A DNA stretch of 43,000 bases from Bacteroidota bacterium (GTDB taxonomy: Bacteria > Bacteroidota > Ignavibacteria > SZUA-365): contig JACZJN010000134.1 in assembly GCA_014860565.1 (NCBI GenBank), positions 1-43,000 of the forward strand. Reading direction: 5' to 3'. Within the stretch, counting starts at the first letter, position 1. Every line of letters begins with the position of its first letter. A program made the translations under genes and the position numbers. Positions 14,783 through 26,027 of this stretch are shown here, one piece after another. The notes beneath the pieces were generated by a model. That model worked only from the letters and a program-made list of their open reading frames with translations. It was not told the origin of the DNA and did no database searches.

Positions 14783-16000
14783 CTATTCCCCCGGATTCGT
14801 CACCTGTCCGATAAAGAGGATCGCGCCGGAATTCCGTTCATGAATCACGAAGACAAACGGGTGGTCGACGCGCATGACCGGCGGCATGGAGGTAGTTCCC
14901 ATTTCGACCGAGGTCGCCGCGGCAGCTTCCGTCCCTTCCTCGTTCACCATCACATAGGTTTTATGCTTCACATTCGTGATGTACAATTTGCGGTCGCGGT
15001 TGATGCCCGAAAAATCAGCGAGATCCGGATCGAAGGCGCGTTCCATCCCCATGCTCTTGAGCATCTCATTGAGTCCCACTTCGTATTCGAGGGTGAAACG
15101 CGGCAGCTGCAAATCCATCTCGGTATCCTGCAACTTCGACTGCCAGGCCGCCCACTGTTCCGAAAGCAGCGCATCGCGCACTTGCCCCAGGGTCACTCCG
15201 GGCCGCGGCAGTATCACCGCCATGCTGTAGCGATCCCATCCATAGGGCAGATCCGCGATTTCCACGAGTTCTCCCTGATGGTAGCGCATTGAACCCGAAC
15301 GGTTCATCATCTTGATATTCTTCCGCCCGCCATCGATAGTCATGAAAATATCATCGCGTGTTTTCTGCGCGTCGAACTGCTCCGCCCAACTGCCCTTGAA
15401 ATACACGGCGTTGATCAGGTACATCATCACGAGATCCGGGATGGGGGTGCTGACGATGTCGGGAATCTTGCCCTGTGTCATCTGGCTCACCCAGGCATTG
15501 ATGATATCCGCGGCATCCGCGCGGGAAAAATCAAGCGTGCGTATTTCGGCGTCAAAATAGTAGCGATTGGAATCGACGAACGCCTGCTCGAGCGGAAAAC
15601 CCTCACGGCTCCAGATCGAATTCGCGATGTCGAGACGCACCCGGGGATCGATACCGCGCAGCAGGTCGAGCAGGCTGCGGTAGGACTGGTTGATTTCACT
15701 CTGCGTCATATCCGCGAAATGCAGCGCCTGCCGCATCCCCAACCATGTTTCGCCAGCCGCACCGTTTACCGTCATTCCCAAGGCCATCGAGACGCTCAGC
15801 GGTGAGAGGAAGATATTGGCGTCGGGGGTCGAGGCGGCAACCGAACGAAAGAGGGTGATACCGAAACTCGTGTTGGCGCGTGCCAGCGCGAGTTCCCCGC
15901 TGCTGATCGGGCGCACGGGAGTCGGAGTTTCAGGCCCCGTACTCTCTTCTGAACAGGAAAGAAGCATCAGGGGTAACAGGAGAAGGACAATTCGTTTCAT
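14783..16000 (-). CDS. Serpin (serine protease inhibitor), predicted lipoprotein
   Basis: A 405-residue serpin expected to trap serine or cysteine proteases by the suicide loop-insertion mechanism. The start is the ATG at 15998-16000: GGAGG lies 5 bases upstream, and the product opens with a lipoprotein signal (MKRIVLLLLPLMLLSCSEES, lipobox Cys16), so the protein is membrane-anchored facing the periplasm or cell surface. Family motifs include NIFLSPLSVSMALGM, INAVYFKGSW, and the C-terminal DHPFVFVIHERNSGAILFIG. The reactive-centre hinge EEGTEAAAAT (354-363) has the small-residue pattern of inhibitory serpins. Counting against alpha-1-antitrypsin puts P1-P1' near Thr370-Ser371, suggesting an elastase-like rather than trypsin-like target (inference). 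The full length of about 380 residues after the lipid anchor is normal. The target protease is unknown; the nearby rhomboid is an intramembrane enzyme and an unlikely target. Confidence 0.93.
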   Translation of the reverse strand: MKRIVLLLLPLMLLSCSEESTGPETPTPVRPISSGELALARANTSFGITLFRSVAASTPDANIFLSPLSVSMALGMTVNGAAGETWLGMRQALHFADMTQSEINQSYRSLLDLLRGIDPRVRLDIANSIWSREGFPLEQAFVDSNRYYFDAEIRTLDFSRADAADIINAWVSQMTQGKIPDIVSTPIPDLVMMYLINAVYFKGSWAEQFDAQKTRDDIFMTIDGGRKNIKMMNRSGSMRYHQGELVEIADLPYGWDRYSMAVILPRPGVTLGQVRDALLSEQWAAWQSKLQDTEMDLQLPRFTLEYEVGLNEMLKSMGMERAFDPDLADFSGINRDRKLYITNVKHKTYVMVNEEGTEAAAATSVEMGTTSMPPVMRVDHPFVFVIHERNSGAILFIGQVTNPGE

Positions 16001-16098: not shown

Positions 16099-17502
16099 TC
16101 AGAACCCGATCGCAACGCCGAAAGTGAAATTGAGTTTCGTCGTATAATACGACATATCATCCACAGTATAGCGGAGCATGCCGCCTTCGATGCCGACGTT
16201 CAGCATGGAAAAATTCGAAGGATACATCTCCAGACCTGCACGCACTTTGCCCAGTGGACCGAGCTTTGTCGCCCCGACGAATGTGCGAAGATAGGGATAG
16301 ACGACATCGAACAGTCCGTATTCCGGGAGGGACAATTTCCAGACCGCTCCGACCAGATCGAGCATTCGATTCTCACGCTGCGGTCCGGTGATCCACTGAG
16401 CGGGCGGTGTATACATTTGCTGGACCGACTGATCGAGCACGACGGGAGCAGCGAGCGCGACGTCGGTGCGCTGATATTCCCGGCCGAAATTTTCGCGACC
16501 GTATTCAAATCCGAACGCGTGATGCTCCGTCGCCTTGTAGACTACGCTGATGGCCATGTTCTCGAACACCTTGTGCGAATTATGCTGCAAGTCGACGTCG
16601 GGATAGGACGTCCCGTAGTACTTGCGCAGTTCAAACACCAGATTCGAGAGAAAACTTGTCTGCGGTCCCGGCTGGAAGAATTTCCACGGCGGATCGATTG
16701 TCGGTACTTCGTTGATCACCACCTCGTCATGGTCGAGCCGCAGGTCCTGCACATGCTCACCCGGATGTTCCTGCGGTCCGAGCAGGGCGATCGACCGCGG
16801 GACCGGAAGTTCGCCGGGTTGCCCTGCTCCCTGCGCAAGCTGCATGCCCCCGGACGAAGTGGCTGCATCCCGCGCATTGAAAGATTCCGTCCGCCTTTCG
16901 GTCGAGGTCTTCGTCTGGCTGGCCGTACCCGCTGCCTGATCCGACGCGACCACCCGCTGATCCGACGGGATCGCGTGCTGATAAGCCGGGACCCGCGGTT
17001 CATCAGCCGGCATCTGATCCGACCAATCAACCGGATTATTGTCGGCACGCTGGGATACCGCATCTGCGTTCGCATTGTCCGTCGAGCTCTTTGCATTTTC
17101 CATCGAGCTCACCGTTGATCCTTCCGGACCGTAGATGCTGAACAGCAGCACGGCCGTGGCGATGGCGGAAAGCGCCGCGGTATAGATGTATTTCCGATTT
17201 TCGACGAGTCTGGAGTGCAGGCTGAGCAGCGCCGCACCCGCGCCGCTGCGCAGACGCTGGGCCCGTGTGAGTGTGGACTCTACAGGAGGAGTGAGGCCGA
17301 GCGTTGTAAACAACTGTTGGGACACATGCGACGGTGTCGTAATCCCGGCCACATCCTCCTGTATCATCGAATGCAACTTCAGATGCGCAGTGAATTCCCT
17401 GCGCAATTCCGGATCGAGGGCCATCTGCCCGAAGAGGATATCCTCGAGCGGCTCTTCGAGTCCTTCGTCAAAAAAGCGGTGAAGTAATTCCGTGTGCTGC
17501 AT
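16099..17502 (-). CDS. Fused anti-sigma factor / transmembrane / C-terminal outer-membrane-like barrel protein
   Basis: A 467-residue protein with an unusual layout. Residues 1-75 resemble the N-terminal anti-sigma domain of the second ECF module (both have an L-x-x-x-[FY], LF, [DN]PE, R-x-x-HL pattern and a conserved VxxxL stretch). No signal peptide precedes it. A single hydrophobic helix lies at 105-124 (YIYTAALSAIATAVLLFSIY). A low-complexity Ser/Thr/Asp/Gln linker of about 160 residues follows. Residues about 285-467 show alternating beta-strands and end LNFTFGVAIGF with a terminal Phe, as in outer-membrane barrels; this part resembles the C-terminus of the separate barrel protein at 23878. 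Cytoplasmic N-terminus and outer-membrane C-terminus would require one chain to span both membranes. It starts 34 bases after the ECF sigma gene. Alternative: the C-terminal domain is a soluble periplasmic beta-domain. Homology to anti-sigma factors is inferred from pattern and position. Confidence 0.7.
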   Translation of the reverse strand: MQHTELLHRFFDEGLEEPLEDILFGQMALDPELRREFTAHLKLHSMIQEDVAGITTPSHVSQQLFTTLGLTPPVESTLTRAQRLRSGAGAALLSLHSRLVENRKYIYTAALSAIATAVLLFSIYGPEGSTVSSMENAKSSTDNANADAVSQRADNNPVDWSDQMPADEPRVPAYQHAIPSDQRVVASDQAAGTASQTKTSTERRTESFNARDAATSSGGMQLAQGAGQPGELPVPRSIALLGPQEHPGEHVQDLRLDHDEVVINEVPTIDPPWKFFQPGPQTSFLSNLVFELRKYYGTSYPDVDLQHNSHKVFENMAISVVYKATEHHAFGFEYGRENFGREYQRTDVALAAPVVLDQSVQQMYTPPAQWITGPQRENRMLDLVGAVWKLSLPEYGLFDVVYPYLRTFVGATKLGPLGKVRAGLEMYPSNFSMLNVGIEGGMLRYTVDDMSYYTTKLNFTFGVAIGF

Positions 17503-17536: not shown

Positions 17537-18100
17537 CTAGCGGATCAGGTCGCTGATGTAAGGAGCGAGGATGCTCTTGACCTGATCTTTCGCGCGCATG
17601 ACGCGCACTTTCAATGAGGAGACCGAATCGCCCGTGATTTCGGAAATCTCCTTGTAGGAGAGTCCCTGATAGAATCGGAGAACAAACGCCTCGCGATACG
17701 GCAGGTCGAGCAATTCCAGCGCCGAGCTGATCATGTTCAGCAGTTCGCTGCGTTCATACAGGGGGGCGTGGCTCGCAATGACCTCGTCGTCGAATGGCGA
17801 CCAGAATACCTTATTGCGTCGCGTGTTGAGAAACACGTTCCTGGCGCTGGTGAGCAGATAGGCGAGGATATTGCTGACCGACTCGCCCGGCTTTTGCGTC
17901 TGCCGGTAAAACCGCGTGAACGTTTCCTGGAACACATCCCCCGCATCGTCGGGATTCCCGGTCATGCGCAGGCAGAAGACGTACACTCTTCTTTCGTACC
18001 GCGAAAAGAGCTCACGGAACGCCGCGTCTTTCTCCTTGCCGCTCTGTTTGAACGCCGTGAAGAGCTGTTCGTCGGTATGTTGGCTATAGTCTTCTGGCAT
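17537..18100 (-). CDS. ECF-family RNA polymerase sigma factor (module 1)
   Basis: A 187-residue sigma-70-type factor. Region 2 spans about 27-95, with the core-binding/-10 motif DDAGDVFQETFTRFYR. Region 4 spans about 125-180, with LPYREAFVLRFYQGLSYKEI and the helix-turn-helix ISEITGDSVSSLKVRVMRAK that reads the -35 element. Regions 1, 3 and any C-terminal extension are missing, as in ECF factors. The downstream gene encodes its probable anti-sigma partner, fused to a barrel-like domain. The ATG at 18098-18100 is used. A TGTAAC-N17-GTCT motif lies about 50-80 bases upstream, suggesting autoregulation. What activates it is not known; the partner suggests an outer-membrane signal. Confidence 0.93.
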   Translation of the reverse strand: MPEDYSQHTDEQLFTAFKQSGKEKDAAFRELFSRYERRVYVFCLRMTGNPDDAGDVFQETFTRFYRQTQKPGESVSNILAYLLTSARNVFLNTRRNKVFWSPFDDEVIASHAPLYERSELLNMISSALELLDLPYREAFVLRFYQGLSYKEISEITGDSVSSLKVRVMRAKDQVKSILAPYISDLIR

Positions 18101-18152: not shown

Positions 18153-18179
18153 AGACACGTTTGTTGAGGGTCGGTTACA
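18153..18179 (-). promoter_or_regulatory. Candidate ECF-type promoter of the module 1 sigma gene
   Basis: On the minus strand, TGTAAC (18174-18179) and GTCT (18153-18156) separated by 17 bases, resembling GGAAC/GTC-type ECF promoters. A near-identical pair sits upstream of the other ECF sigma gene (22462). Assigned by eye. Confidence 0.4.
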
Positions 18180-18195: not shown

Positions 18196-18822
18196 TCAGC
18201 CCCCCAGGCCAACCGCATGCAGGAATGTACCGAGGGACGAAGGATCGACGGCGATCGTGAGCAGAAGCCCCGAAAGCGCACCGTATATGTGGACGTCGTG
18301 GGCGACGTTATCCCACTTCCGCCGCGCCCCGTACATGCTTCCCGCGATGAACAGCACGGCAAACACCGGCCAGGGCATCGGGATGGGAAGAAACAGCAGC
18401 ATCACTTTCGCCTCCGGGAAATAGAGCATTCCTGCAAAAAAGAGTCCGGAAACAGCCCCCGAAGCGCCAAGTGCGCGATAATCGGGGTCATTGCGTTTGC
18501 GAATCGCCGGAATAATTCCGGAAATTATCAGTGAACCAAAGTAGATGACCAGAAAGGCCGGCGTCCCGGCTGCGGCTTCCACATACATCGAGACCGAATA
18601 CAGCGCAATGAGATTGAATAGCAGATGCATCATGTCGGCGTGAAGAAAACCCGAGACGATCAGCCGCTCGTACTGCTTTCCACGGAAGAGTTTCCATGGA
18701 TAAAGGAGAAAGCGCTCGGTGAACTCCCGGCTGCGGAATCCGATGAGACTTACGACCACGATGGCCACGATGATGGCGAGTGATGCCGGGGCGCGGGAGA
18801 ACATGAATTCAAGCTGGGTCAT
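18196..18822 (-). CDS. Rhomboid-family intramembrane serine protease
   Basis: A 208-residue inner-membrane protein with about six hydrophobic segments. The catalytic dyad is visible: Ser121 in GASGAVSG and a His in the last helix, H178 in DNVAHDVHIYGALSG (H175 is the other candidate). The HADMMHLLFN motif (61-70) is the conserved helix-2 segment with stabilising His and Asn. Rhomboids cut helices of other membrane proteins within the bilayer. I start at ATG 18822 (MTQLEFMFSR) because the first helix follows directly; the frame remains open to 18879 but those residues look unlikely. No clear ribosome site is seen, so 18804 is also possible. Its substrates are unknown. It is divergent from the DinB gene at 18953 and lies just upstream of the ECF sigma gene on the same strand, but with a separate promoter. 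Confidence 0.88.
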   Translation of the reverse strand: MTQLEFMFSRAPASLAIIVAIVVVSLIGFRSREFTERFLLYPWKLFRGKQYERLIVSGFLHADMMHLLFNLIALYSVSMYVEAAAGTPAFLVIYFGSLIISGIIPAIRKRNDPDYRALGASGAVSGLFFAGMLYFPEAKVMLLFLPIPMPWPVFAVLFIAGSMYGARRKWDNVAHDVHIYGALSGLLLTIAVDPSSLGTFLHAVGLGG

Positions 18823-18952
18823 GGGCGAAGCCGTGTGCAGGGTTCGTTGTATATTGCATGATACGACAGCGATGAACACGCACGCAAGTCTCCGTCACCG
18901 ACCCGTGCCTTATCACCGTATTTTTCGTCATTTCAAGGAAAAAAGGACCGCC

Positions 18953-22568: not shown

Positions 22569-23087
22569 ATGACCGAGCGCGAACGTCGCAAGCGTTTCGA
22601 TGAGATTTACGCGTCCTATGACCGTCGCGTGCTTGCGTATTGCATTTATGTCACCAGCGATCGTGATCTTGCGAATGATGTTTTTCAGGAGGTTTTCGTG
22701 AAGGCGTATCAGGCGCTGCACACGCTGCGTGACAACGACAAGGAGGCCAACTGGCTATTCCGGATCGCGCGCAACGAATGCCTGAACGCTCTCAAGTCGC
22801 GGCAGCGCAGCGACAAGCGGAATATCTCTCTCGACTACGCCCCGGAACCTGCGGCGCAAAGCGAAAGTCTCGAGACACGCGATGCGCATGAGCAGCTGCG
22901 CAAGGCGATTGACCAGCTGCCTCAGGATTATCGTGAGGCGCTGGTTCTTGCGGAGTTCGAAGGCTTCTCCCTGAAGGAAATCGCGGAAATCACGGGGGCT
23001 TCCCTGTCCAACGTCAAAGTGCGCATCCATCGCGCGAAACAAAAACTGCATACCATTCTCGAACCTATATTGAACGACTATGAATGA
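22569..23087 (+). CDS. ECF-family RNA polymerase sigma factor (module 2)
   Basis: A 172-residue sigma factor. Region 2 (about 8-75) has the DRDLANDVFQEVFVKAYQAL core and -10 recognition segment and the ANWLFRIARNECLNALKSR motif. Region 4 (about 105-165) has LPQDYREALVLAEFEGFSLK and the helix-turn-helix IAEITGASLSNVKVRIHRAK. It is the same type as the factor at 17537, to which it aligns along both regions, though clearly diverged. Its last 8 bases overlap the start of the anti-sigma gene, indicating coupled translation. The following two genes probably belong to the same operon. The stimulus is unknown. Confidence 0.93.
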   Translation: MTERERRKRFDEIYASYDRRVLAYCIYVTSDRDLANDVFQEVFVKAYQALHTLRDNDKEANWLFRIARNECLNALKSRQRSDKRNISLDYAPEPAAQSESLETRDAHEQLRKAIDQLPQDYREALVLAEFEGFSLKEIAEITGASLSNVKVRIHRAKQKLHTILEPILNDYE

Positions 23088-23874
23088 GCGCATCCAGGAG
23101 TTGATCTCCGCTTACCTGCATCGCGGCAGCACGCCGGAACAGGAGCGCGAGTTGTTTGAAGCCTGCAGCCGAAATCCGGAAACCGCCGAACTGCTGCGGC
23201 AGCATCTCGTCCTTTCCCTGAAGCTTCGCGGCCTGCGAGAAGAAGTGCAGGTTCCCGCCGATCTGCAGAACAACGTGCTGCGGCGCATCAACACCCTCGA
23301 GGCAGAGGGCCTTCGCAGCGAGGAAATGCACGCTGCCAGCGAAGCCGCGACCGAACCGCGCAGGCGTTTCGGTTTTGCGCACCTCCTCGGAACAGGGTTG
23401 GCCACCGCGGCCTGTGCGATAACGATCATGCTGTGGAGCGCAGGTCCCGATACCGGACCCGATGCTTCTCTTCAGCAAGTTGCACAAGTGCAGGACACGG
23501 TGTATATCGTAGAGAAGGACACCGTGATGCAGCTTCGCGAAGTCGAGCGCCCGGTGTATATCGTGCGCAATGCGCCCGTGGCGCCTGCACCGGAATCGCC
23601 GGCGAGCAACGACGCTGCCGACCTGGCCAGGGCGGCAGATGACAGGGTTGCGGCAACAGAGCCCGGCACCGCACTTGCGACTCGCACACAGCCTGACGCG
23701 GCAGTGCCGCCCTCACCTGCCGCCGTGGAAACTGAGATGCCGCTGATCGCCGAGATGCAGCCTCGGGAAGCCACGACTCGTGAAGCGAAAACCGAGAATT
23801 ACATTGATCAATACAACAGCATGCTTGTCTCCGTCGAAACCGTCCAGCTTTCCGCGAAGGACCGCATTCACTAA
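23080..23874 (+). CDS. Probable anti-sigma factor, single-pass membrane protein (module 2)
   Basis: A 264-residue protein. Residues 1-75 are the presumed cytoplasmic sigma-binding domain (LISAYLHRGSTPEQERELF, RNPETAELLRQHL), with no HxxxCxxC zinc motif. A hydrophobic helix lies at about 99-119 (FAHLLGTGLATAACAITIML). The remaining 145 residues are periplasmic, with a duplicated VYIVEKDTV / VYIVRNAPV segment and an Ala/Pro-rich tail. Its start overlaps the sigma gene by 8 bases, the classic arrangement for a sigma/anti-sigma pair. The N-terminal pattern is shared with residues 1-75 of the fused protein at 16099, but here the barrel is a separate gene, which starts 3 bases later. The anti-sigma role is inferred from position and topology. 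Confidence 0.8.
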   Translation: MNERIQELISAYLHRGSTPEQERELFEACSRNPETAELLRQHLVLSLKLRGLREEVQVPADLQNNVLRRINTLEAEGLRSEEMHAASEAATEPRRRFGFAHLLGTGLATAACAITIMLWSAGPDTGPDASLQQVAQVQDTVYIVEKDTVMQLREVERPVYIVRNAPVAPAPESPASNDAADLARAADDRVAATEPGTALATRTQPDAAVPPSPAAVETEMPLIAEMQPREATTREAKTENYIDQYNSMLVSVETVQLSAKDRIH

Positions 23875-23877
23875 TTC

Positions 23878-25350
23878 ATGAGCGTGCGCAGTCCAATAGC
23901 GATCCTTGTCTTTCCCTTCTTTCTCACGCTGCTCCTCACAATGAGAACAGCGGCGCAGGATATTTCCGCCTATGAATTGGTTTCGAAAGAGGATGTCTTT
24001 CAGCGTGAACTGAACGCTGCGGTCGCACGCGCCGCAATGTCGGGCACCCTCCCGCATCTGGATTGCGCCGTGGAATACATTCGACGGCAGAATGGCGAGG
24101 ATGTCGTCTATCGGCGCGGCCCCATCGATCTGCATCAGGAAGAATTCACGTCCGTCGATACGCGCCGGGAGACGCGGGGGACGCAACCCGCCGCATCCGA
24201 TTCGAAGGACCAGGTGTTCCGCGGCGGCATTCTCGTCGACCTCCCCCGGGCAGGGGAAACGGATCAGGAACTTGCCCTCGCCCCGCGTGGGTATCGCTAT
24301 ATGCTGCGCGTCGCTCTCGTGCCGACACATTACGAGAACGCCACGCTCAACGCACAAGTCTTTCTCGAACGCGCCGTCGTCACGGAGCGGGACGGCAAAC
24401 TCATTCTCCATAGCAGCGAGGTGTTCTCACGCACCGTCGAACTGCAGGGAAACCTTCCGCTGAAATTCGATTTGCCGGAATGGGATGCATCCCTGCCCGA
24501 GGGAGGACGCGTCGTACCGTCTTCCCTGCAGGAAGCCGCCCTCATCACCCTGGAGGTGCCCCGGCATTTCGGCCTTCCGGAGAACCTGCCCGAGCCCTTC
24601 GCGGAGAGCACGCTGCTTACCTACGCCGTGCCGCAAACCAGCATGGTACGCCTTTCCATACAGGTGCAGGGGGGAGAAAAAGTGATTGAAGAAGGGATGC
24701 GTCAGCCCGGAACGTACGAGGTCGTCTGGAATGCCGCGGAACTTCCCGATGAAGATTACACCGCTGTGTTCTCGGCGTCGGACGCAGACGGGAATCAACT
24801 GTACCACGATGAGCGGACGCTCAGCAAATCGCACGACGCGCAGAACTGGACCGGCCAGAGCGGCACGGTGCTCCGCGGCGACGGCGGCGCCTTTGTCGCG
24901 GGCCTTGAAAGCGGAGTGGCGTACCAGTTCCCGAGAGACGATGCGCGCGCGCTTCGAAACATGTTCACGCACGTGGTATTCCGCCTCGGGTACCGCTTCT
25001 CCAGCCGGTGGGAAGTTGGTGTGATCCTTGGGCAGGAAGCCTTTCAGGAAGTGCCCGGTCGCGAGGTGGATATCGAACGCATCAGCGATTACGGCGGCGT
25101 GGTTGGATATACCTACGGCTACGGCGGCGCATACCTGCGCTGGATGTTCGGGACTTCCTTCCTTCAGCCATACGTGGAACTCGGTGCCGGACTCAGCAGT
25201 GTCGCGGCATTGACACAGATCGCTGCCGGCGTCAAAGCCGACTTGATGAAGAACGTCGAGGTGTATCTCAGTCCCGCGGCAATGATGCATTTCAGGAGCG
25301 AGGTGAGCACAAAATTCGGCATTCATTATGGCATGAGCGTGCGCTTCTGA
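23878..25350 (+). CDS. Exported protein with FlgD-like Ig domain and C-terminal outer-membrane barrel (module 2)
   Basis: A 490-residue exported protein. Residues 1-26 are a signal peptide (ends MRTAA, then QDIS). About 27-245 is an unassigned beta-rich region. About 250-310 resembles a FlgD-like Ig domain (VRLSIQVQGGEKVIEEG, PGTYEVVWNAAELPDEDY). From about 335 the chain has alternating strands (HVVFRLGYRFSSRWEVGVIL, YGGAYLRWMF, PYVELGAGLSS) and ends FGIHYGMSVRF with the terminal Phe of outer-membrane proteins. This last part resembles residues 285-467 of the fused anti-sigma protein at 16099. The start lies 3 bases after the anti-sigma stop. A role as the outer-membrane sensor or as a main target of the sigma factor is inferred from context. 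Confidence 0.78.
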   Translation: MSVRSPIAILVFPFFLTLLLTMRTAAQDISAYELVSKEDVFQRELNAAVARAAMSGTLPHLDCAVEYIRRQNGEDVVYRRGPIDLHQEEFTSVDTRRETRGTQPAASDSKDQVFRGGILVDLPRAGETDQELALAPRGYRYMLRVALVPTHYENATLNAQVFLERAVVTERDGKLILHSSEVFSRTVELQGNLPLKFDLPEWDASLPEGGRVVPSSLQEAALITLEVPRHFGLPENLPEPFAESTLLTYAVPQTSMVRLSIQVQGGEKVIEEGMRQPGTYEVVWNAAELPDEDYTAVFSASDADGNQLYHDERTLSKSHDAQNWTGQSGTVLRGDGGAFVAGLESGVAYQFPRDDARALRNMFTHVVFRLGYRFSSRWEVGVILGQEAFQEVPGREVDIERISDYGGVVGYTYGYGGAYLRWMFGTSFLQPYVELGAGLSSVAALTQIAAGVKADLMKNVEVYLSPAAMMHFRSEVSTKFGIHYGMSVRF

Positions 25351-26027
25351 TGCAGAACCTGCGCCCCATATCGAGAGTCCTTGCGGCCGCGGCATTGATG
25401 TGCTTTGCTGCATTTCTTCTTGTCCGCTGTGATTTTCCCTCCGACCCACCGCTGAAATCCAGCACCACCGATCCTCCGGCCGTTGAGCCAACAGATTCAA
25501 CCGGCGTTCTCCTGCCGCTGTCGCGGCATATCCAGTGGGTATATCTTTTCGAGGCACCGCCTCGTCCAGTATCCGCTCCGCGCATTGTGTCGCCGCGTGA
25601 ACTCGATTTCGAAGGCAGCCACTTTTACTACGTCCCCTACACATCGACCATGGGCGGACCGGGCAGCCTGCGCGTCGCCTTCCCGGTGCTGCTGCGAAAC
25701 GACAGCCTGGGACTGAGCTTCTATCAGCCTGTTCGAGCCGAAGACACGCTCTCTATTTCGCTGCGGCCGAAATTCATGTTCACCCTTCCGTACCCTGCCC
25801 GTGAAGGGAAAATGTATACCGGACGCAACCCGGAGTTCTCCGTACGCATGACGAACAAGGATACCCTTGTCACGATGTACAATCACCCGGTCTCCCTCCC
25901 CTGTCATCGTTATGAAGTATGGCGCGGTGCTCGGGTCATCACCGTACTGTACGTCGTGCCCGGATTGTGCATTCTCCGCGTCGAAGAGGATGATATGGTA
26001 TATCATACCATCGGCTGGTCGATCTGA
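25350..26027 (+). CDS. Hypothetical exported protein, possible lipoprotein (module 2)
   Basis: A 225-residue protein not matched to a family I know. The ATG at 25350 overlaps the preceding stop (TGATG), so it is translationally coupled to the barrel gene; a much longer frame upstream to 25008 runs antiparallel in sense to nothing and is an alternative-frame artefact. The N-terminus MQNLRPISRVLAAAALMCFA and on to VRCDFPSD is a signal sequence; Cys27 is a possible lipidation site although LVRC is a poor lipobox. The rest is beta-rich with no low-complexity repeat beyond a Pro/Thr-rich linker (35-55). Its fixed position as the last gene suggests it acts with the barrel and anti-sigma proteins. 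Confidence 0.8.
   Translation: MQNLRPISRVLAAAALMCFAAFLLVRCDFPSDPPLKSSTTDPPAVEPTDSTGVLLPLSRHIQWVYLFEAPPRPVSAPRIVSPRELDFEGSHFYYVPYTSTMGGPGSLRVAFPVLLRNDSLGLSFYQPVRAEDTLSISLRPKFMFTLPYPAREGKMYTGRNPEFSVRMTNKDTLVTMYNHPVSLPCHRYEVWRGARVITVLYVVPGLCILRVEEDDMVYHTIGWSI

Follow-up and report, generated by a model that had tools for sequence, protein, structure and literature searches.

The gene at 16099–17502 of the window (the whole 43,000-nucleotide stretch of DNA that was analysed) encodes a protein that is probably an anti-sigma factor tethered between the two membranes of the cell envelope, of the kind described as Dma or Reo. A single chain joins an anti-sigma-like domain, one hydrophobic helix, a long low-complexity linker and a predicted C-terminal β-barrel. 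The barrel would report the state of the outer membrane, with failed insertion or damage leading to breakdown of the chain and release of a sigma factor. This assignment is based on the homologues, the topology signals, the extracytoplasmic function (ECF) sigma gene directly upstream and the published precedents, which together support the suggestion of an earlier note, made from the sequence alone, that such a chain could span the envelope and control a sigma factor from the outer membrane. That note could not exclude that dual-membrane anti-sigma factors had been described before, and the architecture is indeed already published, as Dma1–3 and Reo. The new elements are its occurrence across an Ignavibacteria-like lineage, where the C-terminal half has no match elsewhere in the phylum among those listed, a split version of the system nearby, a predicted promoter that is exactly conserved, and rhomboid and serpin neighbours.

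Architecture and conservation of the fused protein

The protein and its parts are as follows, with the basis of each assignment in brackets.

16099–17502, minus strand: predicted fused dual-membrane anti-sigma factor (Dma-like), 467 amino acids (translation; 29 aligned sequences alike in layout)
17278–17502, minus strand: residues 1–75, class-I-like anti-sigma domain without zinc ligands (profile; AF2 helices)
17134–17190, minus strand: residues 105–123, single inner-membrane helix with basic residues on its N-terminal side (hydrophobicity; charge pattern)
16660–17133, minus strand: residues 124–281, long low-complexity linker, probably periplasmic (composition; AF2 model devoid of secondary structure)
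16099–16659, minus strand: residues 282–467, predicted outer-membrane β-barrel with a C-terminal Phe (alternation, Pfam barrel matches of homologues and structural alignment, each weak alone)

The open reading frame starts with ATG, its product ends in ...VAIGF, and this product matches no Pfam or NCBIfam model. The layout read by the earlier note was recovered by measurement: residues 1–30 contain no hydrophobic signal peptide (best 19-residue hydrophobicity mean of 0.11), and the sole hydrophobic peak, placed by the note at residues 105–124, lies at 105–123. The linker, described there as 160 residues of low complexity, is approximately 155 residues long and rich in A, S, P, D and Q, with few hydrophobic residues and with P/S/T/A/Q/E/D/N/G accounting for 71% of the 156 residues from 125 to 280; judged by this composition, it is probably disordered. 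The strand-rich character given to the last 180 residues, which end in Phe, corresponds to β-type alternation over the 187 C-terminal residues.

The layout is conserved in an alignment of 29 sequences, most of which are 18–57% identical to the fused protein. A membrane helix precedes the linker in all 29 (between residues 58 and 131; a few have a second, weaker peak), an N-terminal signal peptide is present in none, and the linker varies in length from 95 to 216 residues. Phe is the last residue in most of the aligned homologues, and in most an amphipathic strand leads up to a terminal Phe or other hydrophobic residue. The fused protein and its close relatives show a clear positive-inside signal, but K/R residues are more numerous before the helix than after it in just 15 of the 29.

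Matches to the fused protein were found in 46 of 149 genomes of the class, often as N-terminal and C-terminal matches within one frame of 340–520 amino acids. A profile search added full-length fused copies in further families, bringing the one-chain copies to at least 10 families of the class when both searches are counted together. An assembly artefact is ruled out by this distribution and by the layout common to the 29 aligned sequences. The nearest public relatives carry the labels Bacteroidetes and Ignavibacteria; among the profile matches listed outside the class, only N-terminal halves of the family were found. The spread suggests that direct control of transcription from the outer to the inner membrane is common in this mostly uncultured class, beyond the gut Bacteroidales.

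The source genome contains four fused copies, on contigs C210 (the window), C98, C184 and C53. Downstream of each of two paralogous fused systems of this genome (L084:1956–3962 and L085:482–2458) come a lipoprotein gene and a gene for a secreted von Willebrand A protein, of which the L085 one has a match to a T9SS-type tail.

Sigma gene and predicted promoter

Two features lie upstream of the fused gene.

17537–18100, minus strand: cognate ECF sigma factor, 187 amino acids, 34 nt upstream of the anti-sigma gene (Sigma70_r2, Sigma70_r4_2)
18153–18179, minus strand: predicted autoregulated ECF promoter, TGTAACC-N14-GTGTCT (exact and identically placed in all 10 family genomes that have the fused system)

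In each of the 31 loci with enough sequence, the gene immediately upstream of the fused gene encodes an ECF sigma factor. The motif TGTAACC-N14-GTGTCT sits between the rhomboid and sigma genes with identical spacing in surroundings that have diverged, and it looks like an autoregulated ECF promoter, a prediction made from sequence. No exact copies occur in G081 and G088, the two of the 12 family genomes that lack the fused system. With at most one mismatch, the 12 genomes contain 75 sites, compared with about 20 for the reversed control. The other sites precede genes for secreted proteins, lipoproteins and a conserved 81-residue cytoplasmic protein. Once freed, the sigma factor would use promoters of this type to transcribe its own operon, probably including the serpin gene, as well as some genes for surface proteins.

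A split counterpart in the same window

A second system in the window carries the same parts on separate proteins.

22569–23087, plus strand: ECF sigma factor of the split system (forming one clade in the family in a tree)
23080–23874, plus strand: separate membrane anti-sigma protein, homologous to the N-terminal half of the fused protein (profile; hhalign)
23878–25350, plus strand: separate secreted barrel protein, with a C-terminus homologous to the fused barrel domain (profile)

The three genes are tightly ordered as sigma, anti-sigma and barrel, which is the order of the fused parts 5 kb away. The ATG of the lipoprotein gene that follows overlaps the barrel stop codon at 25350, and positions 22569–26027 of the plus strand take in the operon and this lipoprotein gene. 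The split anti-sigma and barrel genes adjoin in 11 family genomes, including G081, which is without an ortholog of the window's fused gene.

A profile of the fused family, built without the split genes and run on the protein's own genome, matches both halves as separate genes in the window: at 23095–23496 with an E-value of 1.1e-4 and at 24958–25347 with an E-value of 6.5e-5. The first match, together with an hhalign E-value of 1.2e-6, bears out the likeness that had been noticed between residues 1–75 and the other anti-sigma protein (23080), and the second does the same for the resemblance of the C-terminus to that of the barrel at 23878. BLAST of the fused protein against these two proteins gave nothing significant, the best E-value being 0.04 for the anti-sigma protein at 23080. 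An hhalign comparison of the separate barrel with an alignment that already included it was circular and was discounted.

It is conceivable, and is offered tentatively, that the lineage runs one signalling idea twice: as a fused chain bridging both membranes and as the split operon at 22569–25350, where a separate barrel would contact a separate anti-sigma protein in the periplasm, with the adjacent rhomboid perhaps making the releasing cut. If this is true, comparing the fused and split forms would reveal whether physical tethering is needed. The presence of both forms, together with the clean conserved promoter, opens both the mechanism and the regulon to comparative tests.

Serpin and rhomboid neighbours

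The fused gene and its sigma gene are flanked on the same strand by two further genes.

14783–16000, minus strand: serpin lipoprotein, probable operon member directly downstream of the fused gene (PF00079, E-value of 4e-112)
18196–18879, minus strand: rhomboid protease, upstream of the promoter (PF01694, E-value of 5e-24)

The serpin gene lies beside the fused gene in six relatives and is missing in G042. The rhomboid gene adjoins the system in the family genomes with resolved context; in G042 (locus L089) it instead follows the anti-sigma gene immediately and is still adjacent. Outside the family, rhomboid genes were not found beside Dma-like genes, so that the linkage may be plain synteny, and cleavage of the anti-sigma helix by the rhomboid is an idea rather than a result.

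The rhomboid gene is also relevant to the alternative that the chain is cut in the periplasm in normal cells, with the barrel and the anti-sigma part acting as two proteins in the manner of the split system. Besides the adjacent protease gene, a linker that is probably disordered and a split system 5 kb away, conserved in the family and with these parts as separate genes in matching order, would fit such processing. However, the fused form has been retained in at least 10 families, suggesting a need for linkage, and routine cleavage is considered unlikely.

The probable N-terminal anti-sigma domain

In the tethered arrangement, the N-terminal helical domain would hold the product of the ECF sigma gene immediately upstream, and the single helix would anchor the chain in the inner membrane, leaving the N-terminus on the cytoplasmic side. 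A PDB profile search with the first 100 residues (177,635 sequences) ranked RsiW first (E-value of 0.015) and placed RseA (E-value of 0.3) and DdvA (E-value of 0.94) within the top nine. Three class-I anti-sigma domains among nine matches from a set of this size are unlikely to have arisen by chance. No single match is significant alone; a comparison of residues 1–75 with known anti-sigma domains had been proposed as a check by the earlier note.

The AF2 model (four-row alignment) places helices at residues 3–13, 19–29, 31–51 and 59–67, with a pLDDT of 51–69 up to residue 50; the whole-chain model from the four-row alignment is poor (pLDDT of 35). The HxxxCxxC zinc ligands that define the ZAS domain are absent, the fused protein having no cysteine at all.

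The predicted C-terminal barrel

Hydrophobic alternation in the C-terminal half is of the kind usual for membrane strands: its mean z relative to shuffled sequences is 2.3, similar to the values for known PF13568 barrels encoded in this genome. Among four soluble controls, three have z below 0 and the fourth, the serpin, has a z of 1.8. When C-terminal domains were scanned singly against Pfam, in a set that has the window's separate barrel as row 30, the best match was to PF13505 (OMP_b-brl; E-value of 8e-5), with further matches to OmpA_membrane (E-value of 0.0014) and, for one homologue, OMP_b-brl_2 (PF13568; E-value of 0.004). Outer-membrane barrels make up half of the 14 Pfam families listed for these domains. 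An hhalign comparison with five of this genome's PF13568 proteins gave no match.

Modelled alone with AF2 (five-row alignment), the C-terminal domain forms an antiparallel meander with a pLDDT of 48 and a pTM of 0.42; the closed eight-stranded barrel that the earlier note proposed as a check was not confidently confirmed. Foldseek found no significant match for this model, the top seven being outer-membrane barrels, and only meaningless matches for the full-length model. VIA-align, which re-examined Foldseek's own candidates and typically gives a best Z-score of 7–8 where no clear match exists, placed OprF first (Z-score of 8.8, 95 aligned residues, 3.5 Å), with Ail, OmpX, NspA and OmpA at Z-scores of 8.0–8.5 and avidin-like chains (hoefavidin) at 7.3–7.7. 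This result supports a C-terminal barrel and is no proof of it.

The avidin-like alignments, the low confidence of the C-domain models and the alternation of the serpin control would also suit a soluble periplasmic β-sandwich or avidin-like sensor, which would make the protein a conventional anti-sigma factor of the inner membrane that carries a large sensor domain in the periplasm. Such a domain is improbable in view of the amphipathic strand with a final Phe or other hydrophobic residue in most homologues, the same kind of end in the separate homologue at 23878, the outer-membrane barrels among the best Pfam relatives and the negative scores of the remaining three soluble controls. In the favoured, tethered arrangement, the linker would cross the periplasm and the barrel would sit in the outer membrane; if the barrel failed to insert or the outer membrane were damaged, the chain would be cleaved or degraded and the sigma factor freed.

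Comparison with known systems

The class-I anti-sigma factors RseA and RsiW have a short or soluble periplasmic part and no barrel; their likeness to the fused protein lies in the N-terminal helical domain, a weak profile match, and the single membrane helix. In the FecA–FecR–FecI system, an inner-membrane regulator relays control from an outer-membrane barrel to an ECF sigma factor; the regulator and the barrel are separate chains, the latter a TonB-dependent transporter. The split system at 22569–25350 is closer to this logic than the fused protein is.

Dma1, Dma2 and Dma3 of Bacteroides thetaiotaomicron consist of an anti-sigma N-terminal domain, a transmembrane helix, a long disordered tether and a C-terminal barrel (PMC13088901; PNAS 2024, doi 10.1073/pnas.2321910121). 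An ECF sigma gene is adjacent for Dma1 and Dma2, and according to the published account Dma proteins occur solely in Bacteroidota and have ECF21 sigma factors as partners (PMC13088901). The fused protein is like Dma in all parts and in the adjacent sigma gene, the likeness being one of architecture. Unlike Dma, it comes from an Ignavibacteria-like class, has a serpin gene downstream and has a C-terminal half without a match outside the class among those listed. In a phylum-wide PF13568 search for Bacteroides Dma genes, three long candidates were examined and none had the Dma layout.

Reo, paired with EcfO in Phocaeicola vulgatus and Bacteroides fragilis, is an anti-sigma factor predicted to span the periplasm and to end in an outer-membrane barrel, with the sigma gene upstream (PMC9308784, PMC13114119). 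The architecture has been investigated by genetics in both Bacteroides and Phocaeicola. In P. vulgatus, Reo has been described as spanning every compartment from the cytoplasm to the surface, and toxins damaging to the outer membrane induce the pair and its regulon (PMC9308784, PMC13114119). A plain sigma/anti-sigma pair carrying the barrel as a passenger with a function of its own and no role in sensing, which the lack of a known signal for the present lineage would allow, is highly improbable given this response of the Phocaeicola equivalent and the conservation of the fusion and gene order across the class. The Reo regulon of Bacteroidales includes nigD genes, and O-antigen length is affected (PMC9308784, PMC13114119). 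The fused protein shares with Reo the predicted envelope-spanning layout, the C-terminal barrel and the upstream sigma gene, and differs in its serpin neighbour and its predicted surface-protein targets.
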